Shown piece after piece: positions 5,935 through 64,000 of a DNA stretch of 64,000 nucleotides. The translations under genes were made by a program, and so were the position numbers. Every line of letters starts with the position of its first letter. Within the stretch, counting starts at the first letter, position 1. The notes under the pieces are model-generated. The model made no database searches. It was not told the DNA's origin and saw only the letters and a list, made by a program, of their open reading frames with translations. Location: assembly GCA_001574975.1 (NCBI GenBank), contig KQ965819.1:45636-109635 (forward strand). The letters run 5' to 3'. The DNA comes from Gonapodya prolifera JEL478 (taxonomy: Eukaryota; Monoblepharomycota; Monoblepharidomycetes; Monoblepharidales; Gonapodyaceae).

Positions 5935-7247
5935 ATGTCTCTCCCAGCGGTTGCGCCCCGAGACAATGCTCTTGATCTTCAAATATGGACCAACGGGGGC
6001 GGACTCGCAAGGCAAGTGTGGTCAACCTTTCACACAGGAGCAATCCCGGGACATGCTCACACTCCCTGTCCCACCTGGGCGACACAGCGCAGTAACCCGA
6101 ACTCTTACACTCTTTATATTTATGCAGGAGTGGAGCGTTCTCCCTCACCAGTTGAAGTGGCTCCCCTTCAGCGCACTTGCGATTATGCTTGCTGCAAACA
6201 TCAGTGGGCTTCTTGGAAATGTTTATGCTTGCAACCCATTTGTCGAGTAAGTCAATTCAACGCCCAAGTCTTGGCGTCTTTGACTTTTCCAATATTTTGT
6301 TCATCTCTCACCTTTCCAACTTTACTTGACATTGTTAAGGGCCGGATGCTTTCTCTTCCAAATCGGAAAATTTTGCGAGGCACTTACGTACATTTTTCGA
6401 ATCTGGAAGCTTTCAGGTCGAAATATATATCTCACAGGTGCAGGATTTGCTCTTCACATTGGATCTGCTGCAACCGTTTTGGGGTATGTGTGACACTTGG
6501 CGACAATTATAGGCAGGGTTAACCCGGCAGTACGTCCCTTTTGAATACGGCAGGTTCTGCGCCACGGGGACTTCGTTTCGTGCTCTGCCACGACTTTGCA
6601 TTCCTATCCCGCGGCTCCCTGTCAATAATGACCTGTTCTCGGCGATAGCGTACACCACGCCATTGACCTATATATATCTCGCTCTAGCTCATGTCTACTG
6701 CCTCCGACAGTACAAGGTGTCAGCGACCGCGTCAAATCGAAAGCTTCGAAGCTTCCTTGATATGCTGGCCAAAAGCGTTTTGGTAATTATCCTGGAAGCC
6801 CTGAGCGCACTTGTTATGAGAGTAGTGGTGAGTCACATTTTCCTGAACGTTGGCGGGCTATGCGCCCCCGATTACCTTGGTCTGAAGTGCTTGACCGTGT
6901 GAACAAAGGGCGCATATAACCCCCAATCGTTCTTTGTTTCCCTTTGGGTTGGACAAGTCGTTCTTGATCTTGCTTATGTTGTTTACATCAAAGGCTTTGC
7001 CGTCGATCTTAGTTAAGCATCCCAACAGGAAGGAGACCCTACGAAAATTGATCCTTCGTTGACAGCGCATCAGGCAGGGCACGGTGTTAACGGGTTTCAA
7101 AAGGACACTATGAAAACGGACAACCACCATAAATTTCCCCTCGTGACCGGTTTCCAACCTGTCGGTACTCCAGATCGCCCTGTTCTCATGACGGCCGATA
7201 TGTCCAGAGCGTTTCGCTCAGCCTTCGACCCTTCCGAGGTAAAATAA
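5935..7247 (+). pseudogene. Tandem membrane-protein paralog 4, near-complete with frame damage
   Basis: It starts MSLPAVAPRDNALDLQIWTNG (ATG 5935), matching paralog 3. Relative to that copy it has lost two bases in the segment just after AGGCA (about 6020-6070), so the rest of exon 1 (SAVTRTLTLFIFMQEWSVLP...NVYACNPFVE) reads in another frame. Later exons are intact: GCFLFQIGKFCEALTYIF, LSGRNIYL, LPRLCIPIPRLP, FLDMLAKSVLVIILEALSAL and FFVSLWVGQVVLDLAYVVYIK. TAA at 7014-7016 then precedes an open tail (ASQQEGDPTK...VTGFQPVG...TADMSRAFRSAF) that paralog 2 has in frame. The true C-terminus therefore was either at 7014 or at 7247. Function unknown. Confidence 0.5.
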
Positions 7248-7895: not shown

Positions 7896-7953
7896 GATTC
7901 TGTTCGCTGTGGTCACTCGCTCAATTCTGACGATTTCCAAAGCTACATTTCCA

Positions 7954-10356
7954 CTACGCAGTTTTGTTTTTCAGGTGTTTGGAAGCATCCGATACGGTAT
8001 TCGTCGTCATTTGGACCCACAGTCCGAGAAGACCAACTGCACACCACACCGACGTCAAAGCGAGTGGCGCGAACGCCCATGCAGGAGCGAACAGGGGGAG
8101 AATGAACTCAGAGAGCGTGATTACGATGGGGAATGCCCGGGTATGGAGACGAGTGAGGAGAGGGGGTTGTGCGGTAGTCGGTGCACCTCTGTAATTCCAA
8201 GATTGATATTGACACCGATAGTAGAGCTTGGCAAAAACTCACTTTGCAAACAGGTCTTGTGTGAGAAGCATGTATGCGGCTAGAATCGTGAACTTGATCA
8301 GGGTTTCTAAGTAAGTGGCGAAAGAGCACATCGTTAGGTCGACTGCTCGGTATGAAATTCTCTTTGACAAGGCTCTCACCATTCGACCGATGAAGTAACG
8401 GAAACAAACTGTAGTAGGATATGAGATTCATCGGTTGCACGAAACTCTGGTAACCCGGATCGATCGAAGCAAGTAACCTGAATATCGGAGGGTACAAATC
8501 TCCATGTCGAGCCGTGACACTTGTCCCAAAGATCTCACGCACTCACAACAGCGGTACCGTTACCAGTATGACTGCCTTTTCGTGAACGTGCCACCCCAAC
8601 AGGAAGGAAGCAAATGCGCACGAGACCAGTGACGCCAGAAAAACGACCTGCGGGCGCTGTGGACTCGGCGTGGACGAACTATTTTTCGAGCGACCTGAAG
8701 AAAAGTAGAGATGGACAAGGGACGGCTGTCACACCGAGCCTTATTAATCATCGAACAAGCATATTTGGTGGTGCTTGGATTCTCACCAACATTGCCAACA
8801 ATGTCGCCCCCACCGTGACGCCAGGTCTCACGTCTGCCAGAACCGCGAACCTGACGTCCTCCACCACCCCTCGTGTCGCACTCCGCATGGCTTCCGCGTC
8901 GATTGGGAGTCGCAGCAGTCTGAACGCAAGGGCTAGTGCTCTGTCCAACGCCACGTAGAGCGCCCAGAAGTTTGGGGCCCAGTAGGCGTGGACAAGACCG
9001 CGCCGGAAGGGGAACAGACGTGAGATGATTTGTGAGAGGTGGGCGAGTGGTGCCGATGGAGTCGATGCAAGGAATGGGAGGAAGGAAATGCAAAATATGG
9101 AGAGGACGGAAGAAGCGAGGAGAACAAAGTTTGGGTAATCAAAAGTCGAGAGGAGGGCTTTTAAGGATGTGAGAGGATCTGGAAGCGCTTCAGTTTACAG
9201 GTACACAATCCCCACGCCACATTCCAAGAGACGAACGTACCTTTGCTTGCGACTCGGAGCCCCTTTGTCCCATTTTTCGTAGAGTCCGCCTGAAAGCAGA
9301 AGTGCCGCAGTAAATAAATGAAGTAAGCGGGTGCAAGGTACAGGAATATGTGCTTCAAGTTGAGCAGCACCGCGAAAATTGCTCCACCCAGTAAGTCATT
9401 CCCCTAATATAGAAGTACAATTTGGAGGGCTCGCTCACGTCCCGTCGGTAATCGTCGCGATCGCTCACCTCCATAATCTCAGCAACACTCCACAGGAGTA
9501 CTCCAAAGAGGAATCCGTTGTATTGGAAGTGTATCGAGTCAACAATGAGAAACCCCGGGTTCAGGAACGTCGCTCCGAGAAGGAGATTACGCTTGGCGGA
9601 CGTTGTTTCCAAAGGCAAGACTTTCGGGGAATAATACAGCCTTCAAAAATAGCCCCCAAAGACTTCAGAAAGCGGTGAGGTGAAGAGCATACACCACAAC
9701 GCACTTTATCAGCGCTCTCAGAAGCACGACCTCGCTCATGATTACAGTCGTCCGGTGCACCACGACGGTCATCCAGCTGTCGTACCCGTCGGCGAACAGC
9801 TCGAGCATCCTCCAGTCCCCCGTGAGCCACGCCGCGGGAGCCACGATTGCGTGGGCGAGTATCCATTCGAAGAAGGCAAAGAAGGGTGGGTAGTCGAGGG
9901 TCCATTGAGAGGTTTCCTGATTCGGATCAAAGTGCGTACGGTTACGAGCGATCGGAAGGGAACGCGAACACGACAATTACATCATAGTACCACGATTTGA
10001 GAGGAAGATTGTATGTAATTGCCAGCCAGTTGCGGTGAACCTCAAAATCCGTAGACCGACTGTACTTCGGACATGGGTGTTAGAACGGGAACGGCCCGGC
10101 GTCGCGGTCTTTTGTCAGGTCGAAAGCATGAAACGTACTATGCGGGAAAGAGGAGGACCTTGATGGCGGTGCTGACACCGAAGAGCGTGGCAATGAAGGT
10201 CCAGTCTGGTTTGACGGTAGGAAGTGGCGATTTCTGAGACGATGAGCTGAAGGGATCGAAATCGGGAATTGAAGCGATCGCACGTGAGTGCTTTTCTGGC
10301 GTGGAGACGTACAATTCACCGGAGGAACGAGGTGGAGATGTTGATGTGCGTGCCAT
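7954..10356 (-). CDS. ALG8: Dolichyl-P-Glc:Glc1Man9GlcNAc2-PP-dolichol alpha-1,3-glucosyltransferase
   Basis: Ten exons (10356-10139, 10059-9981, 9916-9705, 9640-9469, 9403-9241, 9187-8787, 8656-8547, 8477-8380, 8306-8243, 8188-7954) total 1752 nt and close in frame, giving 583 residues. The enzyme adds the second glucose to the lipid-linked oligosaccharide in the ER lumen. Diagnostic motifs are [37 protein letters not shown] (ALG8 type, not the ALG6 LDYPPLTAY), [77 protein letters not shown] and [10 protein letters not shown]. Many hydrophobic spans fit a GT-C multi-pass enzyme. The start codon gives a 60-residue cytosolic Ser/Pro-rich lead before the first membrane span; a longer upstream start is possible. 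The exon 7 acceptor has two in-frame options 9 nt apart. Confidence 0.92.
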
Positions 10357-51599: not shown

Positions 51600-52230
51600 T
51601 TCTTTTTTGTGGAGACATATTCTGATTGCATCCAGCCTTGAGTTACACCAGTGGAAGTGCATGTCTCTGCAAACATTGTCAGGCGGACATTTACTTTGAG
51701 TCACTGCGCACCAATTCTGTTAATGTTCATGAAGCATGAAGAACCTGTCAGGATATTTGAAATGGCCAGTGGATGTTCATCAGCTCTCATTACAATCACC
51801 ATGAAATGCTATTCAAAAGTTGTTATATCATCATGGTGACATCTGGTACCATTTTGGCACTATACATGTAGCGCCTCCACAAAAATTTGTTGGTATTTGG
51901 GATGTGTAAGTCTTTTAAAGATGTTGATTGTTGATAAGGGCCATTGCAATGTCAGACAAAAGCTTCTGTGCCTGCACACACAACATATTAAGAACTCTGA
52001 GCCACATTTGATAGTGATTCAATAACAAATTTGGATTAGCATTGTAGTCTTTAGTAAGTTTGTTCAAGGTGTCTCAATCATTATGCATTCTTGATGAAGA
52101 CATTTTTGAAATTGTAGTCTCAGAGTATCAGTGATACCTTCATCCTGTATGTTGCAAATAAGGCTAATTAAAGTCACAATTATGTTCCTCAAACATTGTC
52201 TAAAAATGTACCCAGATTCCAGGCAGTGTG
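51600..52230 (+). repeat. Diverged direct repeat, copy A
   Basis: Collinear with 53070-53640 at an offset of about 1.40-1.42 kb. Shared anchors are gcaccaattct (51708 and 53122), aaatttgttg...tttggga, gggccattg (about 51940 and 53361), acaacatatt/acagaacatatg, caacaaatttggatt/cacaacagatttggat, and cttcatcctgtatgttgcaaa/cttcatccttcatgttgcaaa (52150 and 53552). Confidence 0.65.
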
Positions 52231-53069
52231 TTATGTTTGATTAGTGTATTTTGCTCTCTCATTGAGCTCAGGAGACTGTGAAAATGATACTTCCAAGCAA
52301 AGTGGAAAGCAATTTTTTATCTCCACCTTCTTGGATCCACAAACAGCTACTGTTGTTAGCTCTCGAAGGCCTTATGCTTCCATCTGTTGCTTTTCAATGC
52401 CGAAATGTTCTCGGTGAACATACCCAGATTCCTGGATAGCACAAGACCTGTAACATTTTATTTTGTGCCTCTCCTATTTTCAATGTCACGTCTTCCCCTG
52501 AGGGGTTTGGAAGCTGAGTGATGATGTCAATGAGCTTTGGTCATATTTTTTGGGAGTAGAACTGAGCAAAGCATGAAGGATTGTATCAGTCACTATTACA
52601 CTTTTTACAAGCATGTATTGGTACTTTCCTGCAAAGTGATGTCTTTTTTGCTTGTTTAGGCGCCTATTGTTTTTGTCTGGACTTTTTCATCTTAGCTTTA
52701 CCAGGGGAATGCTTCTTGAGGATATGCTATTTTGCTTACATGGCTGGGTGGGGCATCAAAGTCACATCACTGTACAGCAAGCAGAGAGATGCCAGACATC
52801 TGCAATACAAAACATAATTGCTGTTATTAAATAAGTCAGTGTGTGCCCTCCCCTCTTTTATCATCACATCTTTGACTTTAGAACATTGGATAGTAAGCAT
52901 TACTCTGACAACTGTCTAGCACAAAAAACATCTTGCAGCAATCAATATCACCATCAAAAGTTAATTTAAATCTGGTTGGTACAGCAAAATGTGAGATTAT
53001 AGCCATATTTATGTTCCACATGTCATTTTTGTGACATTTTGAGCTTGGGCCAAACCATGATGTCCAGTC

Positions 53070-53640
53070 ATACATTTTTCTGCAAAAAGAGATCACATAT
53101 TGCAATTGCTTAAGTTGCCTGGCACCAATTCTTTTTGGTGTTCACATAGCATCTATCATTACATTTTGTGAGATAGCTTGGTCTTGATCAGCTCTTGTCA
53201 CAAATATCAATGGTCTATGTGTGATTTAAAAGTGGTACCATGATCCAGTTCAAAGGTGCCATCTTGTACTACTATTTTTGCACTCTGTGTAATACCTCCA
53301 TGCAAATTTGTTGTAGTTTGGGATGAGTGAGTTTTGGAAGATGACAGCTGTTGATTCCAAGGCCATTGTGATGCAAACATTTGTGTGCCCACAGAACATA
53401 TGTAGCACTCTAAGCAACATCTTATGGTGATTCCACAACAGATTTGGATCATCATAGTAGTCTTTTGAAAGTTTATTCCAGGTGTGTCAATCATCATGCC
53501 TCCTTGATAATGATATTTTTCAAGTTATCATTACCATACCTTCATCCTTCATGTTGCAAAAAGTTGTTGTTGAAGTTGGAATGGTGTACCCAAAATGAAG
53601 TTATCTTAAAGTTATCCAGATTTTCAGGTATCATGTGACA
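53070..53640 (+). repeat. Diverged direct repeat, copy B
   Basis: Second copy of the unit at 51600-52230; order of shared words is preserved, with many substitutions and small indels. No coding capacity. Confidence 0.65.
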
Positions 53641-54500
53641 TGGGATCATATTTTGCAGATCTCAATCAGCAGATGATGACATCTGGTCAATGACTGTCAC
53701 TGTGTTGACAAGTGTGAAACATTGGTGACCCTGAAAACTATCTTGGCTAAAAAAATAGTATTCCATAAGGTGTAATTCCTTGGAGAGTCCTCTGGCCTTT
53801 GTGTGCTCTTGTAATGTCTGGTGATGCAAGTTGACATCACATCATCCTTGACAAGTCTATGCGAAAGCCTCACTCAATGACAGGATACACATATTCACTA
53901 GCAATATCTGCTCACCTCAGGCTGTCACAACTGACACTAGTTTACCCACGTCAAACCAAATTAAGATGATAGTACTATAAGATGACATTTCAAGCAAGCC
54001 CAAAAGAGACACTGAAGTGAACAGAGCATTGTAGTGCACAGAGATGGAGATGGGTACCACAAAGAGCTGTAAAGTAGTTTGGAGGTGACAACTGAGGAGA
54101 AGAGACAGGGCCTGGCAGAGTAGGAATGATGATGACTTCATAGCTACTGACACCAATACATTCGGCATTCATCTACCTGAGTTACAAACAGAAGGGACAA
54201 GAGCTGCTGAAAAAATGAGATTTGGGCACAATTCACCTCTGATTGGCATGATAGGGCACAGAAGCTGACGGCATAATTCAACACAGGAGCAATAGCTAAA
54301 GTCTTTGCAACTGAATAAGCACTACATTCACATACACAAAACATAAGTACTCTTGTATTTGGACCATTGGTTCTGACTGGACTTGAGAAAGGCCACTCAA
54401 TACAGAAAAAGAAATGAGTGTCAGTGCCTGGCAATGGACACGCAAAATTCACTTGAGAGTCTTTTGTGGGAGTCGTGCAACCATGACTTTCCCTGAGTAG

Positions 54501-55369
54501 CAATTGGACTTTTGAAGGGTCAACTGCAATGGCGGCAGATTCCCCAGCAGAACCTTTGCTGCGGTGTTCCTTTCCATTCCTGCGCACCTGAGTAAGCGAC
54601 TGGCAACTCCGCCACATCGGCACTCATCATTGCAGTGACATTGCAGAATGCAGCAAAGTTAAGGGCGGTAAAGACGGCATGCAAGAAGATCTTTGCTCCA
54701 AGGTCGGTCGACGTTGTGGGGACGTCGGTGGGTGTGGCTGGCGAGAGCAACTTTCCAACGTTCCTAAGTTGATGCAATTGCTCTTCGCTTTGGACCTCTG
54801 ATGGACCCTTGCTGCTGGTTTCATCTGAGGTCTCTGACCAGCCCCTGAGCAACCAAGAGGCCATGAAGGGAGCAATCAATCAGGCAAATAGTGCCCTCGA
54901 TGCCACAGAGGGGGCCAAGTACGGTGAGTGTCTTGGTTAGGAAATGGACACTTGGAACTCCTATCAATAACCCCGCCCTCTTGCCCTGCATTGGCGGCCT
55001 CTGATCTGAATGGAACTCCTTACGTGCCCAGGCGTTGGTTTGGAAGGAGTTGTTCACCAAATTGGGTTTTGTTGGTTCAAGGTAAGTCTTGCCAGCGCCC
55101 AGCAGCACGTTGTCAGGGTGCAAACAGATTTCTCAAACACATGTTTCCTCCCCCACCCATCCCAAACCTCCACTTGACCCTCGAACTGTGGCTGGATTGC
55201 TGTCATTGACCCCTCTGGTCAACTTGGTCTCGGCACATCTGCCTGCTTCAAACTCTTGCCCAGAATCTTGCGCCGAATCCTCTCGGGGACAAAGGATGTC
55301 AGGAATAATATGGACGCAATGGGGTTGTTGACCAATGGGCATGTAGATAGGGACGTTGCGTATATCAAG
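54501..55369. other. Possible short exon series, unidentified
   Basis: On the + strand, SNQEAMKGAINQANSALDATE ends at a GTGAGT donor (about 54925). After a CCCAG acceptor (about 55032) comes ALVWKELFTKLGFVGS with a GTAAGT donor (about 55083). Later, GTKDVRNNMDAMGLLTNGHV ends at a GTGAGC donor (about 55370). The pieces could be exons of one small gene but do not match a family I know. On the - strand a 119-codon frame (54520-54879) competes. Confidence 0.25.
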
Positions 55370-55860: not shown

Positions 55861-56084
55861 GTGGGAGCGGGGGATAACCAGTCGCTCAAGTGTTTGCCAA
55901 TCGTCTATTTAATAACCATTTCTGTCTGGTGTTCACTTTGCGTTTGCGCCGTTTGTATCAGATCCCACATATTGGGTCTAAACGCTTCCAACGACCACTA
56001 TTTCATTAAAATTCAACAACTACATCTTTAGAAAAAACAACTAGAAAAAAAAACTACAATGAATTAGCCTGAGCAACATGTGCC

Positions 56085-57566
56085 ATGCATTCCTTGTACC
56101 GATTTTTTCTTTTGTTGATCATGATGCGCATTTCAGACCGCAAACAATTGTACGCGAGCTGCCGTCACCTACGCTTGAATAAAGAGTTTTCTGTACCTGA
56201 ACTCATGAAAACGTTTGGTGTTTCACAACAAACGGTGTTCAATTGGCTTGCAACCAAACCTGGAGACTGATCTCAACCCAAAAAGAGACCTCCTGGAAGA
56301 TCTCCAAAGTGTTCCGTCGATGTCAAAGATGAAGTGTGCAGGTGGATGACTGAGGATGTGGGAAGGCGACAGGTGGATTGTGTCGACATGGTCAAGGAGC
56401 AGTACGGCATCAACATATCACAGAGAATGGTCACAAACATTCTCAAATGGCACAACGTAACCTGTAAGACCGTCTTGCACTCCTACTGCAAGCAAGAGGG
56501 TCAGCAGGCCAATGTCGAGCATTTCCAAACCACAATGCAGTTGTTGCCCAAGAAGACTTGGGCCATGGACGAGTGTGGTTTCTACCTTAACAAATCACCC
56601 CGCTTTGGCTACTTGAAACGGGGCACACCCATGGTGGCTGACAGGCCAAAAGGCCGTGGTGATCACTATGTCCTCTTTCTGTGCATCTGGTACACGCCCC
56701 CAGGTGCGGAGATACGTGCCCCAGTCGTAGTGTGGACGCTTTATCCAAAGTACGCCAACGCTCAGAGGTTCCAGACGTTTCTCGAACGTGGAGTAAGATT
56801 GCCCTACAACAGGGGCATACTGGCAACCAACGGAGGTGGAGACGCCCTGTTGAATTTGGCTCTCGACAATGCGAGATTCCCCTATGCCACCAATGCTTGC
56901 GTTCAAAACAGAATACCCACGATTGCAGAGACGGCGCGATCAGCAGGCGTCAGCCTTTGTTTCACAGCCAGGTACACTCCACAGCTGAACCCTACCAAGA
57001 ACGCCTTCAAAGTCATTAAGGAAAACCACATTCGTCGCCTTCAACCGAGGACCTACTCACAGCTTGTAGGGGCCATTTCGCAAGGACTGGAAGCGCTCAC
57101 CATCAAAAAGGTCAACAACATGTTTGAGCACTGTTTTTTGAGAAGTCGTCTCATGAGACCAGAGCCAGTTAGATCTACCTCGTGGCTTCCAGCGGAACCT
57201 TGCACTGTTCCAATTCAATTTCTGTTGTGGTGGACTTCATCGGTGAGCTACGCCGTGAAGGCTCAAGAGATCACAATTCAGGCGTGGTCACGTGATGTGG
57301 CACAGCCGCATAAAATCGCTGGAAATTTAGCCTTTTATTTTCAACCGACACACTCACGTCGAATGGTGCCTTCGTCCGGTGGCCCTCCAAGCGGCAAGGA
57401 CGACTGCGGATTGACAGAGGACAAAGACTTTTGCAAGGAGAGAGGTCGGTCGCAACTCGCAAGCATTGGTACTCGCGAGGAGTGGTCAACTCACCATTCC
57501 TCCTCCTCGTCCAGCAGCCATGTGAAACAAGGGAAAGGAGAAAGCACACAACGGATATCGCGTTGA
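56085..57566 (+). pseudogene. IS630/Tc1-like DDE transposase, inactivated
   Basis: One frame from ATG 56085 to TGA 57564-57566, broken once by TGA at 56268-56270. The N-terminus has a helix-turn-helix (FSVPELMKTFGVSQQTVFNW). After the stop come a linker KKRPPGRSPK and a second DNA-binding region (CVDMVKEQYGINISQRMVTN). The catalytic domain follows: WAMDECGF (first Asp, codon 56568-56570) and LALDNARFP (second Asp, 56865-56867). Then comes TPQLNPTKNAFKVIKENHIR, where the third acidic residue expected in LNPxEN is Lys (AAG, 56997-56999), 44 residues after the second Asp. The fold follows the IS630/Tc1/mariner superfamily (DDE_3). The missing Glu and the stop predict no activity. Trailing sequence to 57566 is low-complexity. 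Confidence 0.8.
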
Positions 57567-57633: not shown

Positions 57634-58264
57634 ATGGAGTTCAACCAAGAGCTGGCATACGAACTCGATTGGGCAATAAACGGAGACGTCCACACCGTCA
57701 AACATTCAACAAAGGACCGGCCAGAAGAAGTGGAAACAACCAAAATCAAACAAGGACGATGACAAGTACGAAGTCGGAAGCGAAACGACATGGACCTCCA
57801 CTGACGACATGGACATTGACGAACATCAACCTCCTCCCTGATCAACCGTCTTGAGGACCCTCAAAAAGACAGCCACTATCCTCACGTCAGAGGCTTCCCC
57901 GTTCCCGACTCCCCAACTGGAAATCACAGACAGCGTCCCTTGGACCTGTAAGGACTGTGGACTACCTCTAACAAGGGGTGTTACAGGGATCTCTTTCTGC
58001 AATCAGCGATGTGAGAACAAGCAAAAACGGACAACAATGGCCAAGTGTTTGTCAACGGACCCTACACCATGCTCGCAGTCCGGTCTCGCAAAGTACACGG
58101 GCTACTGCACGAAGCACGTGCACTTGGGAGGATACGCCACGCTGTGTACGTGTGAGATCTACGGACCAAACAAGAGCATGTGCTACTGGTGCAATATGAG
58201 AAGGAGAGCTCAAGAGAAGAAAGGTGCAGTCCAGAGTGGCAAACGTGTCAAGACATCTGGTTGA
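57634..58264 (+). pseudogene. Zinc-ribbon-like ORF of the mobile block (frame-shifted)
   Basis: It begins MEFNQELAYELDWAINGDVH (ATG 57634). After a frame change it continues as an acidic stretch (NKDDDKYEVGSETTWTSTDD), then in a third frame (57851-58264) as a Cys-rich domain: WTCKDCGLPL, ISFCNQRCENK, CLSTDPTPCSQSG, YTGYCTKHVHLGGY, TLCTCEIYGPNK and MCYWCNMRRR. The spacing suggests two or more zinc sites. Family not recognised. It lies between the transposase and the helical ORFs below and may be the N-terminal part of the same protein. Confidence 0.4.
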
Positions 58265-59549
58265 AACAGTGCCTGCCGAACAGGTCCCGCGACCAAGGGG
58301 AGAGGAGAGAAGACGTGACGCCCAAGAAGAAGCCCAAGAAAAGCAACCTGCCTCAGTTCTCCGAGAATGAGATGGCAGTGGCAAGGTCTTTTACAGTGAC
58401 CAACCCAAGAGAGATCTTCGCGTCCATTGCCGTGTTGCGCAACCGCGGCCTTCCCCTCTCCATGGACTTGCAGGAAGTGACTCCGGCTAGTGCGGTCAAC
58501 TTGCAGCTGACTGCCCTCACCAACCTGTATGGCGTCGGACCCCACTTGGGAAGAGCAGCTGCAAAAGTAATTATGGACACGTACCTTGTGGAGCCTTCCG
58601 CCAACTTTGTTGCAAGGGCCAGATTCCGTGACCTGGGGTTTTTGGACCACACTATTTGTCATTTTCTTGGAGCAGTCAGGCTGTTGGCTGAGCTGCTTGT
58701 CTTGCCTGACGTCGCGGCAACAAATTGGCTCCGTCCGAGGCAGCGTGCTCTGCCCAGCTTGGAGCAGATTGTCAATCATGCGGGTGTTCACAGACAGTTT
58801 CAAGAGGCGTTGACAAGAGAGCTCCGCTCTCCACAACTGGTCCTCGGGAGAGATGGTCCAGAGCTTTTCAAGGGGCGGTGAATGCCGTCATTCCCACTCG
58901 AACCGGAGCTCTCAGAACTGCGACGCTTAAGCTTCTACTTGCTTCTCAAGAGTGGTATCGGGAGGCGTATCTGAGCTCCTTCAACATAGACAGTTCCACT
59001 GGCACTGCTCTTTTGGTTGGTGGTACGATTGGACCGACGAAGAGGAGCAGGACTTCAAAGACCAGAGTGGCTGCAGAGGCTTGCTTGGCTCAAGCCAGAC
59101 CCATTGTGGACGTGTTGCATGAGTGTATGAGGAAGGGACAGTACGAACATGTTGGAGGGACAGACGCCAAGACCCTAGCGCAGCTGTCTTTGATCCCCTT
59201 TGTGTCCGAAAGGGACAAAGTGTTCGAGCTACACCCCGCTCCTAAAACTCAACCTCAAAAGGGCAAACAAGCAACAGGGAAAGATGACGGAGGGAAGAAG
59301 ACAAAGAAAGGCAGGGGCAAAACAATGGCGGACAGCAAGTTCCGACAGTGGTTCTATCTGGCGATCGTGCAGAACACGCCGGTTCCCAACATCCCCCCCA
59401 AAGGAGTCATGCTGGCAGAGTACCGCTGCCGATTTTGCAATCAGGCGTACCACCCAACCAACTCTCCCACTTCCAACAGTAACGTGATCGCTGGGACAAA
59501 CTACGCAGAGTGTTTGGAGTTTTCGGACCTTGTCTCATGGACTCGTTGA
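58265..59549 (+). pseudogene. Helical ORF of the mobile block, one frameshift
   Basis: Frame 1 runs from KKPKKSNLPQFSENEMAVAR to TGA at 58881. Frame 3 takes over near 58870 and continues (NAVIPTRTGALRTATLKLLL ... KSRTSKTRVAAEACLAQARP) to TGA at 59549. The later part has a Lys-rich linker (KGKQATGKDDGGKKTKKGRG) and another Cys pair (YRCRFCNQAYHP). The overlap and the natural continuation suggest a single original ORF with a small indel. No known domain. Basic residues fit nucleic-acid binding, by inference only. Confidence 0.4.
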
Positions 59550-59591
59550 TACATTGTCCAGTGAACAAACGAGGGCTTTCTTCTTCAAGGG

Positions 59592-61529
59592 GGTATAAGG
59601 GACCAGTCTGGACTATCTGAAAGCGCGGGAGAGGACGTAAACGGACAAGAGAGCAGAGACGACAAAAGCGGTGATGACAGCAACAAAAGCGACGGTGACA
59701 ATGGAGAGGGAGAAGGAGCGCCTGACGCATCTCGCAGGAAGAAGAGAACGACTGTTGTCACATTGCTCACGGAGAGACTTGCCTATTCTGGGAGGGACAT
59801 TCCAGACTTTCCGGTAGTCATCCGTCAGACGCATCAAAACGTACGGCTCGTCAAGGACATGGCCTACCTCTGCCTCAAGTACATTGTGATCGAACACTTG
59901 GAGAATTGACAGTTCCCAGAGCTGTCGGATAAGGCCGTTTGCAACATTGCGCATGCTGGTGAGTGTTTTCTTTTGCTCAACAGCAAGCGTGGTGTTGGAG
60001 GACAGAACGGTCCATTGACCACGGTCTCTTTCAACCCCCAGTGTGCGTTGCCAGGTTCAAGCTGTGCCCTGCAGGGGACAGGTTCAATACGGAAGCGTGG
60101 GACCAGGTGCCGGACTTCAAAGATTTGGGACTCCAGTTTCAGAGCGACCTTGGGTGGATGACCCCAGACGACTTTGCCCACCACCCGCGGATCAAGCAGA
60201 TCCTACCGTCATGGTTCTCGCCATTGGCAAAAAGGTGGAGACAGGACGAATGCAACCTCGTCCGAAAACACCTCTTCGCCGTCGTCTGCGTTCAGATGCA
60301 GACGGCTCTGAACTCGGCGTCCGTTCCACATGCCTATCACGTCGTGCTCAAACGCTGGCTCACGGATAGGCTTCTCACACAGGAAGCGGACTTTTTTGGG
60401 GAGCCAAAGTACCATGGCGTTCCCTTAGTCATCAACTCAGTGCTCAAGAGGACGTTGGCACGGCACGTTGCAAGAGGGAAAACTGACCTGGGCCTCACAA
60501 ACAACCTGCCGTTGTGGAAAAAGGTCAAAAACCACCTCCATCAATACATTCCCGTCCTCCGAAGGGCGTCAAAGCTCTACAACTCAACCGTGCACATCGT
60601 CGCGGGGCATGGAGCCACCATCCGTGCCGCAAAGGGGACCATATTGCTCAGTTTCAAGTTGTTTGTGCGTGGTAGTGATGAGGATGGGAGAGGAAAGGTG
60701 TTTGACGGATCTGGGAAGCTGCTGGAGAGGGTCGCCAGGTTCCTCGGCTGGGAGCTTGCGCGGTTCGTTGCAGAGACGACCCGACCCATGACATTGAACA
60801 AGTTTTCTCAGCTTGAGGATACCCTATCTCAGGATCTCGCCAACAGAGCAAGGCTTCGCTTTGTGCGGGAGCTCATGCGCAGAGTGGCGGAACTCACTGC
60901 GTCTCAGACAACGAGAACGTCCCGCGTTGCGCTGCTCGTCGTCAGCTTTCTCGACATGACCTTTAAGGTGCTAGTGGAAGAAGGAGGGCTGTTTGCAATG
61001 CAGCCGCCTGTTGAACAGCCGGTTGGAGAGCCGATGCCCCTCTACCTGGAGGAGGTGTGCAAGAGAATGACGGCCATTGTGAGGAGGGACAATCCAACAA
61101 AGAAGACAACAAAAAAGAAGCGGAACATGACCGTTTATGGCAGTGACATCAACAACCACTGAGAGCGGCTCCGCCGAGCCGTATTTGACTGCTTCAGTGC
61201 GCAGCAAGGCCAGCAGAGCTACGTACAGACTGTCAACAACCACTGCCGTCGTGGCCTTGAGAGCGTTTCAAGCACATTCAGAAGGATGACGATTGGAGCC
61301 GGCTTTTGCTTTGCGAACGGTCGACAAGACGTCCGGTGCGGAGAATCAGAAGCTCGTGAGGAGCGTCCAGCAACTGTGCTCGCCTGAGAGGATGGGGTCT
61401 CTGGCTGCTGACATTGACATTGACTGGATCCTTGCGACATTTGCGAACTGCAGGGTCTCAGCTGACGCGCTCATGGACGGAAGTTGCCCCGGATGGGAAG
61501 ACCTGGTGGTGCTCTCCAGTTACAAGGAG
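59592..61529 (+). pseudogene. ORF preceding the Fanzor-like frame, with stops and frame changes
   Basis: After an acidic lead (ESRDDKSGDDSNKSDGDNGE), the helical stretch VVIRQTHQNVRLVKDMAYLC runs to TGA at 59907-59909. The frame continues QFPELSDKAVCNIAHA into a good intron (GTGAGT 59959 to CAG 60041, phase kept) and on to a long exon: VARFKLCPAGDRFNTEAWDQ ... HIVAGHGATIRAAKGTILLS ... LELARFVAETTR-type helices. TGA at 61160-61162 interrupts it, with NNH-stop-ERLRRAVFDCFSAQQ following. Near 61290 the frame changes again and reads ADIDIDWILATFANCRVSAD up to YKE, exactly where the MITE inserts. Helical 'VRLVKDMAYLCLKYIVIEHL' sequence resembles N-terminal helices of Fanzor proteins; this is an inference. 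Confidence 0.4.
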
Positions 61530-62020
61530 TAAGGCCCTGGACGAGTGGGTAACTCGTCACTTTATTGTCAACTTGTACTCACCTAGTGTATTGTGATACT
61601 GTACTCGTCACTTGTCTAAAAGTTCGATGCAAACTTGCAACTCGCGAGTATACTTGCGAGTATACTTGCCAATATATGTTCAAAAAAAAACATTCAAACC
61701 TTGCCCACAGAGCAGGTACCAAAAGCAGAGCACCAAACATTTTTATCATGTATTTTTTACATGTAGTTATTGTTATTTTGCACCTTCATTGCTTTCAAAA
61801 CATCAAAATTCCTGAGTTGGACGGTGTGAGAGACAGGCTAAAAGCATGCAGCGGGCAAGTAGACCCGGCTAAATCATTTTAAGCAAACTCACAAGTGTAC
61901 TCGCGAGTTTGAAAATTTGTACTCGCAACTCACCAAAATTTATTAGCATCAACTCAACTCGTACTCGCGAGTTTATACTCGGCAAGTAGGCAAGTTTATA
62001 CTCACTCGTCCGGGGCCTTA
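61530..62020. mobile_element. hAT-like MITE, 491 bp, inserted in the Fanzor-bearing block
   Basis: The left end taaggccctggacgagtg (61530) and the right end cactcgtccggggcctta (62020) are inverted repeats with two mismatches in about 18 bp. TAAGG fits the YARNG terminus of hAT elements. Flanks are acaaggag (61522-61529) and acgaggag (62021-62028), an 8-bp target duplication with one mismatch, the hAT length. The interior is AT-rich with many actcgcgagt/gtactcg words (subterminal repeats typical of transposase binding). No ORF of its own. Removing the element and one flank copy joins YKE to VWDALRRKRTAIIAARKKK in one frame. Confidence 0.85.
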
Positions 62021-62028
62021 ACGAGGAG

Positions 62029-64000
62029 GTGTGGGACGCGCTAAGGAGAAAACGGACTGCCATCATCGCCGCGCGGAAGAAAAAGGAAGACGTGGTGAAA
62101 GTTGAAGGAGCAGTACAAGCGAGCAGGAAGCCCACTCCATATAGACGCATAAAGAGGACATTGACCGGTTTCGTGCGAGACGGCGTAGCGGAAATCTTCG
62201 ACAGACACCTTTGCAAGCAGAAGAGCAGTTCTGGACACGTTTGGATCAGGCAAACACCTCATCAGCAACAATTGACGACTCGAACTCCAAAACTTTGTCA
62301 GGAAGCTCCGAGCGTTGGTCGATCCAGCCCGCCAGTGCATGGTCGCCAAATCAGCGACCCAGGACGCCTCCAACACGTTCCTCCGCAACGTCCGATTGGC
62401 GCGGATTCGACTCAACCTGCGACCCAGACAGGTGGATTCGGAGGACGTTTCGGACGGGGCATCCGCGTCGAGCGAATCCGGCCGGGATCTCCAGCCCACC
62501 GAGAATTCGGCACCTTCAGACGGAGACGTCAACAAGAAGACGCAGAAGAAGAGGGAGAGGAAAGACCGGTTCGCGGTGGCACCCAATCCTGGAAACGGCT
62601 TCGGAGCGCTCAGGATTGACTCAGTGACAGAGCTCTGGATGCTCAAGAAGATGGCCTACTTTCAAAATCTGTTGGCTGGAATGTACACGGCCTACAAGGG
62701 AATCTTGAGGTCGTACCTGTGGAACTGCGGCAAGCTGGTGACGAACACTCATCTACCTGGAAGCGATACTGCACCACGCCCTTTCAAGAGCGTGGTCGTC
62801 ACCAACGCAGAGTGGCAGATCACCTTTGCCAATAGAGAGAGCTTGGCAGTCGCCCGCGCTCCTCCCGACGCGACGGACACGGACTTTGATTGTCCCTCGA
62901 AGAAGGTGCCTCAACATCGATACCACCCGTCGAGCATGCTCAGAGCTCAGGAGCGTCAGATGCACGCTCTGCGTCGACCCATGACAGCTTCGAGGGAGAT
63001 GATCTTTTACTTTGACCCGAATCAAGGGTTGTCCAACCACAAGCACAACCGTCCCACGGTGGGGTTGGATCTCCTTCCCGAAACTGCGACCGGACGCTCC
63101 GCGGGGAGGACGAACAAGAAGTGGGCGGTGGAACGGAACGTGCGGTACATGGACACTGGGAGAGCTGCGGATGACCAGGAGATCACCAACCCAAAGTCGC
63201 GAGACGTGGAGGTCCACGGGAGAATCACCACGAGGGGTTTCCACCACAACAGGGGGCACCACTACGCCATGTGGGTCGCGGACGTTATGCGGACCCTCTC
63301 GCGGATGGGTGACAGCACGTCCATGGACGACGCTGCTGTGCAGTTTGTGGCAGAACTGATACTCGATCAGCCTCCTAGGACGTTCCAAAGGGTAAGTAGC
63401 AGTATGGGACAGGTTAGGATGGGACAGGTGGAGAGATGTGAGATGTTTTAGAGAGATGTGTATTGGTCTAGCTAGATGAGGCTCTGAACATATAAATAGT
63501 GGTGCCTGAGGCTACCTTTTAGCCCCATCCGACTCAAGGCTATAGTAGTATTCACTAACCCCTTTCGAGTGTTAGTTCCACTACAAGTTACGCACCGGTC
63601 AAGTGAAGGCAGAAGGGTGGAAGACGGTCAAGAAAGCCATTCTCCTGGAGGACGAGCGAACGCAGACTCTGCCACGAGGTGACACATCCGTGTCTGGGCG
63701 ACCGAGGGTGGAAGCGTGGGACTCTGGCGCGACTCTTCAACGAGCGGTCGGAGAGGGGACGATGCGCGAGTACGTAAGAGCCGTCTCGCGGGACTGGACG
63801 TGGAGGCGACTGTTTGCCGATCACGACATCTTCCACGAACTCAAGTTCCGGACGTACTCGCAGAGCCAACGGGTCGTCATGGAGACGGTCAGGAAGCACG
63901 TCCTCGCTCCCGTCAAGGAAACCATCCGCAGCGGCATCCCAGTAAACACGGTCACGCTGGTGTACGGCGGAGCGTCGTTCAATCCCACCTCCCGAGGTCA
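62029..64000 (+). pseudogene. Fanzor-like (eukaryotic TnpB/OrfB-type RuvC) protein, 3'-truncated by window end
   Basis: It continues the upstream ORF (VWDALRRKRTAIIAARKKKE...RTLTGFVRDGVAEIF). The frame shifts near 62211-62280, where TGA 62273-62275 lies in the downstream frame. The main frame is 62276-63390: LELQNFVRKLRALVDPARQ, ELWMLKKMAYFQNLLAGMY, VVVTNAEWQITFANRE, REMIFYFDPNQG (a RuvC-I-like DPN, Asp codon 63014-63016) and RITTRGFHHNRGHHYAMW. An intron (GTAAGT 63391 to TTAG 63573) keeps frame into FHYKLRTGQ ... DWTWRRLFADHDIFHELKFR, TYSQSQRVVMETVRKHV and VTLVYGGASFNPTSRG, open to the window end. The RxRTYxxxQR block followed by a YG-ASFxPTxRG strand is characteristic of Fanzor C-terminal halves. 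The zinc-finger/RuvC-III part would lie past 64000. Assignment by eye only. Confidence 0.5.

Follow-up and report, generated by a model that had tools for sequence, protein, structure and literature searches.

We interpret the last 8 kb of a 64,000-nucleotide stretch of the Gonapodya prolifera genome (contig C89, positions 45636–109635; hereafter the window), with a probability of roughly 0.6, as the readable part of a decayed transposon of the Tc1/mariner-IS630 type that carries a DDE transposase and one long spliced Fanzor1 gene (Table 1). Searches of the genome (47.6 Mb, 207 contigs) with single proteins brought up a further unit built of these parts, on contig C12 (locus L013, whose coordinates are used below for this copy), which is colinear with 56.1–64.0 kb of the window from the transposase to the Fanzor and has a complete 3′ end. 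Both copies are broken: the window copy has stops immediately ahead of 56271 and at 59907 and 61160, along with further frame breaks, and the C12 copy has an incomplete transposase match and frame breaks in its Fanzor gene.

Table 1. Features of the transposon in the window (positions counted from the first base of the window).
Feature	Position	Strand	Basis and remarks
TA at the left end of the element	56065–56066		Window and C48 fragment alike inward, unrelated outward
Tc1/mariner-IS630-type DDE transposase, decayed	56106–57230 (open frame 56271–57566)	+	Pfam DDE_3; protein match to C12
Cys-rich domain, probable N-terminal portion of the second gene	57842–58223	+	47% (E 8e-37) and 52% (E 1.5e-28) identity to C12
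Predicted intron, phase 1	58224–58297	+	74 nt in window and C12; 5′ site GTGCAG poor; sites hand-chosen
M1–M3 with acidic linker, no known domain	58298–59958	+	Colinear matches to C12, E 5e-24 to 5e-7
Predicted intron, phase 1	59959–60074	+	116 nt (109 nt in C12); sites hand-chosen
M4–M5, no known domain	60075–61528	+	M4 47% identical to C12 (E 2.7e-58); in-frame stop at 61160
MITE-like insert	61530–62020		About 0.5 kb, interrupting the Fanzor unit midway; terminal inverted repeats of 22 nt (91%), a TA at each end
Fanzor1 region extending past RuvC-I	62021–63391	+	Protein matches to C12; RuvC-I Asp (D-P-N) at 63014
Predicted intron GTAAGT...TTAG, phase 0	63392–63575	+	C12 continues through in one frame
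Fanzor1 linker and RuvC-II region	63576–64000	+	FRTYSQSQR and VYGGASFNPTSRG; ended by a run of N

The open frame of the transposase matches the Pfam family DDE_3 (E 1.3e-7, 32 bits, cut-off 28.6) and lies 4.7 kb upstream of the ORF that starts at 62276, on the same strand, much as in an earlier note on this DNA, which had placed a DDE transposase about 5 kb upstream of a Fanzor-like ORF; the tie that the note drew between the Fanzor and a Tc1/IS630-type transposase is now backed by the C12 paralogue and by Pfam. The protein match to C12 spans 56106–56810, with 62% identity over the first half of the transposase, and stops in C12 ahead of the second Asp; the catalytic blocks of the window copy are at 56562, 56862 and 56988. 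Its third catalytic acid is replaced by Lys (NPTKNAF vs. NP.EH.F in loci L014, L025, L026, and L029), and the triad is not intact.

The element begins at a TA. A fragment on contig C48 (locus L024) is 94% identical to window 56065–56851 (746 of 787 aligned bases), the likeness ending at position 1796 of a locus that reads N from 1955, and the sequences outside the shared TA (window 56065, C48:172807) are unrelated; the left end is fixed at this TA because the second, fragmentary insertion has different flanks. The first 20 bases of the element occur exactly at two places in the genome, the window and C48, and with three mismatches at six further places, compared with five for a reversed control pattern. 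No inverted copy of the left end was found in the window or in locus L005, and the best TA-flanked inverted pair in C12 (12 of 24 bases) is unconvincing as a terminal inverted repeat (TIR). The right end of the window element probably lies within the run of N that starts exactly after 64000 and is 1,846 bases long. The short ORF just past this run weakly resembles a caspase domain (E 0.0027, below the cut-off) and is taken as a host gene. The predicted introns and an ORF with an SH3 domain are in keeping with eukaryotic DNA.

The ORFs 62276–63391 and 63576–64000 belong to a Fanzor1, one of the eukaryotic proteins related to CRISPR enzymes, an assignment that is well supported, as a matter of sequence, through the C12 paralogue. 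The first exon is 42% identical to C12 (E 4.3e-54, with one internal stop) and the second matches in two pieces with 52 and 62% identity (E 2.9e-15 and 1.8e-14); because both exons have a paralogue on C12, these ORFs are not chance open frames. The Asp codon of the RuvC-I motif FYFDPNQG, which is of the D-P-N form, is at 63014, FRTYSQSQR begins at 63846, and VYGGASFNPTSRG, in the RuvC-II region, begins at 63960. The motif positions given in the earlier note hold; the predicted intron between the exons is at 63392–63575. Searched alone, the window exons matched no family in Pfam, NCBIfam or PHROGs, and exon 2 had no PDB match at E ≤10; structure models of the window ORFs 62276–63388 and 59963–61159, made without an alignment, had pLDDT values of 37.5 and 32.6. 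RuvC-III and the zinc ribbon of the window copy are unreadable because the sequence is N after 64000. The earlier note had made its Fanzor reading depend on these downstream parts, which are present in the C12 copy.

In C12, RuvC-I has its Asp at 7076 (within YWDANRG), followed by Glu 7882, CxxC pairs at 7903 and 8002, Asp 8032 and a stop at 8149; the distal residues are arranged as E-x6-CxxC-x29-CxxC-x6-D, and about 271 residues separate the RuvC-I Asp from an SS pair, across one frame change. The Fanzor1 motif as given by Bao and Jurka (2013; PMC3627910), D-X(125,275)-[TS][TS]-X-X-C4 zinc finger-X(5,50)-RD, is matched in its D to SS spacing, its C4 finger and its RD, here NRD. The alternative RuvC Glu, which PMC10711439 places six residues ahead of the first CxxC, corresponds to Glu 7882, ahead of the CxxC at 7903; the 29 residues between the CxxC pairs of C12 fall outside the 12–18 of the TnpB search pattern quoted there. 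In the Fanzor1 protein SpuFz1, the metal ligands are E541, D383, N385, and D606, of which D383 and N385 coordinate Mg (PMC10432273). The zinc-ribbon family PF07282 scores 33.3 bits in C12 (curated cut-off 26.3) and 19.4 bits, below that cut-off, in the relative L016.

 A three-row profile of the C12, L016, and window sequences, run on 177,635 PDB sequences, placed SpuFz1 (8gkh, E 0.0022) and P. parasitica Fanzor1 (9cf0, E 0.019) on top, followed by two unrelated proteins (E 0.28 and 1.1); single stretches were weak (i-E 2.7, 9.7, and 0.039). L016 alone found 8gkh at E 0.004, again with weak single stretches (i-E 1.9 and 77), which comprise the block aligned to RVEAW...FRTYSQSQR of the window and the block with the Glu and the zinc ribbon. 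Searched singly, neither the C-terminal part of C12 (seven unrelated matches, best E 0.36) nor the compact Fanzor1 of locus L029 found a Fanzor in the PDB. Because these two alone find none and the stretches are weak, it is the C12 motif, PF07282 and the PDB ranking together that make the case for Fanzor1, and not any single E-value. Within the genome, the C-terminal part of C12 is similar to the compact Fanzor1 in L029 (E 3e-8), and the zinc-ribbon part has at least 10 relatives at E 8e-10 or better besides the window and C12, plus weaker ones.

Upstream of this core, the Cys-rich part, M1, M2, M3, and M4 match C12 in order (E 2.7e-58 to 5e-7), the middle ORF in two pieces of 47 and 41% identity. 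Between the two phase-1 introns, wherever the frame of one copy is broken, the other has an open frame that bridges the break: the window frame at 58156 corresponds to C12 2375 and 2752, that at 58710 to 2752 and 3344, and that at 59565 to 3344 and 3871; past the second intron, the window frame at 59963 corresponds to C12 3968 and 4147. The introns themselves are predictions, of the GT-AG type in both copies and with sites picked by hand to keep the frame; the 5′ sites between M3 and M4 (GTGAGT and GTATGT) are good and stand at the same place of the alignment in both copies, and the 3′ site of C12 (AGGAAG) is poor. The extra Cys-rich part expected by the earlier note does exist, at 57842–58261, outside the stretch in which the note had put it; no start codon was identified for it in the window, and its C12 copy resembles PLATZ and zf-FLZ, both below their cut-offs. 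The REC part of the Fanzor may lie within the M4–M5 region.

Among the matches obtained, the Cys-rich domain occurs at two places in the genome and the M4 ORF likewise in the window and C12 only, a count in which a missing match does not equal absence. When two-row profiles of the modules were run on the other Fanzor loci compared (all but L024, which is mostly N), no relative on the same strand came up at E <0.01. A match of the Cys profile in L022 (E 0.0014) was discounted, being on the strand opposite to the L022 Fanzor, and a match of the acidic linker of the window to C12 6208 (E 0.005) is out of order and was taken as chance. Because the Cys-rich and M4 modules were found in these two units only, while the zinc-ribbon part has at least 10 other relatives, the window and C12 copies seem to make up a subfamily of their own.

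Judged from sequence, the parts from the Cys-rich domain to the Fanzor core probably form one protein of about 1,870–2,000 residues, some three times the usual size, most Fanzor1 proteins having 600–700 residues (PMC11423790). The estimates are arithmetic on broken copies: in C12, the distance from the ATG at 1959 to the stop at 8149, minus two introns, gives about 2,000 codons; for the window family, counting from 57884 and borrowing the 3′ part of C12 gives about 1,870. The layout is longer than that of compact Fanzors, as the earlier note had proposed, in that the long upstream part is backed by C12; that it is all one protein is likely, with a thin stretch across 61.1–62.5 kb. Between 61103 and 62519, C12 is matched weakly or not at all, and M5 is unconvincing (best E 0.023); the PTPYRR block matches C12 at E 1e-4, and later pieces match at 0.007, 1e-5, and 8e-9 in changing frames. 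This is where a boundary would fall if the transposase were followed by two genes, one for an accessory protein of about 1,150 residues (Cys-rich domain to M5) and one for a Fanzor1 of ordinary size starting near 61.3–62.3 kb. Such an arrangement has a parallel in the Mariner element PGv-1, with transposase, endonuclease and Fanzor1 as three proteins (PMC3627910), and would bring the nuclease into the usual size range cited above. In C12, however, a single frame of 573 residues crosses from M4 to M5 and runs to 5868, the window frame 61990–62619 holds a block that aligns with the following frame of C12 (E 1e-4), and, judged by eye, the two copies share no start codon at a matching place. We regard two genes as possible but doubtful. 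The fuller form of the one-protein reading, in which a single Fanzor1 of about 2,000 residues gains from its Cys-rich and domain-less half a second nucleic-acid or partner-binding module of its own, we put at even odds.

The upstream ORFs might also be another mobile element, which a Mariner-Fanzor element adjoins or has entered by chance. The lack of same-strand module relatives in the other Fanzor loci compared (at E <0.01) fits this, as does L027, where retrotransposon-like frames do stand between transposase and Fanzor remnants; the recurrence of the module order on two contigs, at about 30–60% protein identity and with matching predicted introns, makes it very unlikely. It is hardly credible that the core is some other transposon protein with a zinc ribbon by chance: the window part alone matches no family, the E-values against the PDB are just 0.002–0.02 and two single-sequence searches (C12 and L029) came back without a Fanzor, but C12 holds the whole Fanzor/TnpB motif in order with PF07282 above its cut-off, two Fanzor1 structures head the profile ranking, and the C-terminal part of C12 resembles the Fanzor1 of L029, which itself exceeds the PF07282 cut-off. 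The Fanzor identity proposed in the earlier note is thereby borne out by the C12 paralogue, Pfam and the PDB searches.

In the reading that we prefer, a transposon with one long Fanzor1 gene, the product would start with a Cys-rich, probably zinc-binding domain, continue with about 1,000 domain-less residues that include the acidic linker, and end with a Fanzor1 core of WED, split RuvC and C4 zinc ribbon. If it works like the Fanzor1 proteins that have been tested, an omega-RNA would arise from the 3′ end of the element, and the core would cut DNA matched by this guide; such cutting may preserve the element at its site upon excision at TA by the transposase. The added half could help to bind RNA or DNA, to localise the protein or to contact the transposase. 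The guide RNA that the earlier note expected past the 3′ end was not detected in C12, where 8090–8340 folds like its shuffles (z −0.03); the 3′ end in the window reads N. Rfam found nothing in the window at the gathering threshold, and ARAGORN found no tRNA there.

With SpuFz1 and the P. parasitica Fanzor1, the family shares the RuvC-I D-x-N, the linker block, the alternative Glu, the C4 ribbon and the final Asp; it differs from both in its added Cys-rich and domain-less N-terminal half and in its length, if it is one protein. The Mariner-Fanzor1 elements PUl-1 and PGv-1 (Bao and Jurka, 2013; PMC3627910) likewise combine a Mariner-type transposase with a Fanzor1 and have TA at the end, whereas in the element described here no TIR is demonstrable; PGv-1 has a GIY-YIG endonuclease of 291 residues between its two genes, where the present element has the long Cys-rich coding region. 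A compact unit in the same genome (L029, C114:32801–37300) also pairs an IS630-type transposase (339 residues, DDE_3 E 1.5e-17, D, D, and E blocks all present) with a PF07282-positive Fanzor open frame of 480 residues, but its coding unit is only about 3.4 kb and no relative of the Cys-rich part or of the M modules was detected in it.

Known Fanzor1 proteins are mostly compact. If the reading is right, a natural Fanzor1 lengthened in this way would illustrate how an RNA-guided nuclease is enlarged by transposons of eukaryotes, the extension perhaps helping it to find targets, to enter the nucleus or to couple with the transposase. No Fanzor that has a Cys-rich extension or reaches about 2,000 residues appeared in the titles and abstract openings among the open-access literature matches listed, Fanzor supplement lists apart. 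The same host genome also carries the compact Fanzor1 of L029 and Fanzor2-like loci, so that variants could be compared within one host; the Fanzor2-like ORFs, in L002 (C165) and L001 (C37), match PF07282 at E 5e-13 and 9e-14. A further ORF in L002 is presumably an IS607-type serine recombinase.

Across the genome, a DDE relative lies within 10 kb of 11 of 30 Fanzor places (both lists being lower bounds), always on the 5′ side, and on the same strand in 9 of the 11. Uniform placement gave a mean of 0.33 and a maximum of 4 in 10,000 trials, a contrast that is overstated because the control ignores the clustering of transposons. Carriage by a eukaryotic transposon other than IS607 is seen in the window, by its DDE_3 match, and at these 11 places. 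A DDE-Fanzor spacing of 6.7–7.9 kb at 6 of the 30 places was considered as a shared long layout and rejected: retrotransposon-like frames fill the interval on C38 (L027), and the N-terminal modules of the window were undetected on C127, C17, and C1 (L014, L026, and L028). In L027 (C38:241001–249200), the frames between the transposase remnant and the Fanzor remnant are, by eye, Ty3/gypsy gag-pol-like. Locus L026 (C17:309201–319000) holds a frame of 570 residues that reads as a transposase with D, D, and E blocks and a Cys-rich tail, and the DPNRG motif of a likely Fanzor lies about 7.5 kb downstream of it. Scans of viral contigs with queries A4, A2, A1, and L016 found no relative, and the one match of a tblastn search with the C-terminal part of C12 against phage records (E 0.3) was taken as chance.

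The MITE-like insert of the window has no counterpart in the colinear C12 unit. Of the 41 differences between the window and its C48 counterpart, 28 are CpG sites that the window has lost and 2 are the reverse. The observed/expected ratio of CpG is 0.05–0.41 at 52001–55000 and about 1.0 in most of the window; stretches at 0.0–0.2 occur in L014, L019, L022, L023, L027, and L028, and L013 (C12) and L026 (C17) are near 1.0. These ratios suggest CpG-directed decay of repeats, by methylation or a RIP-like process.
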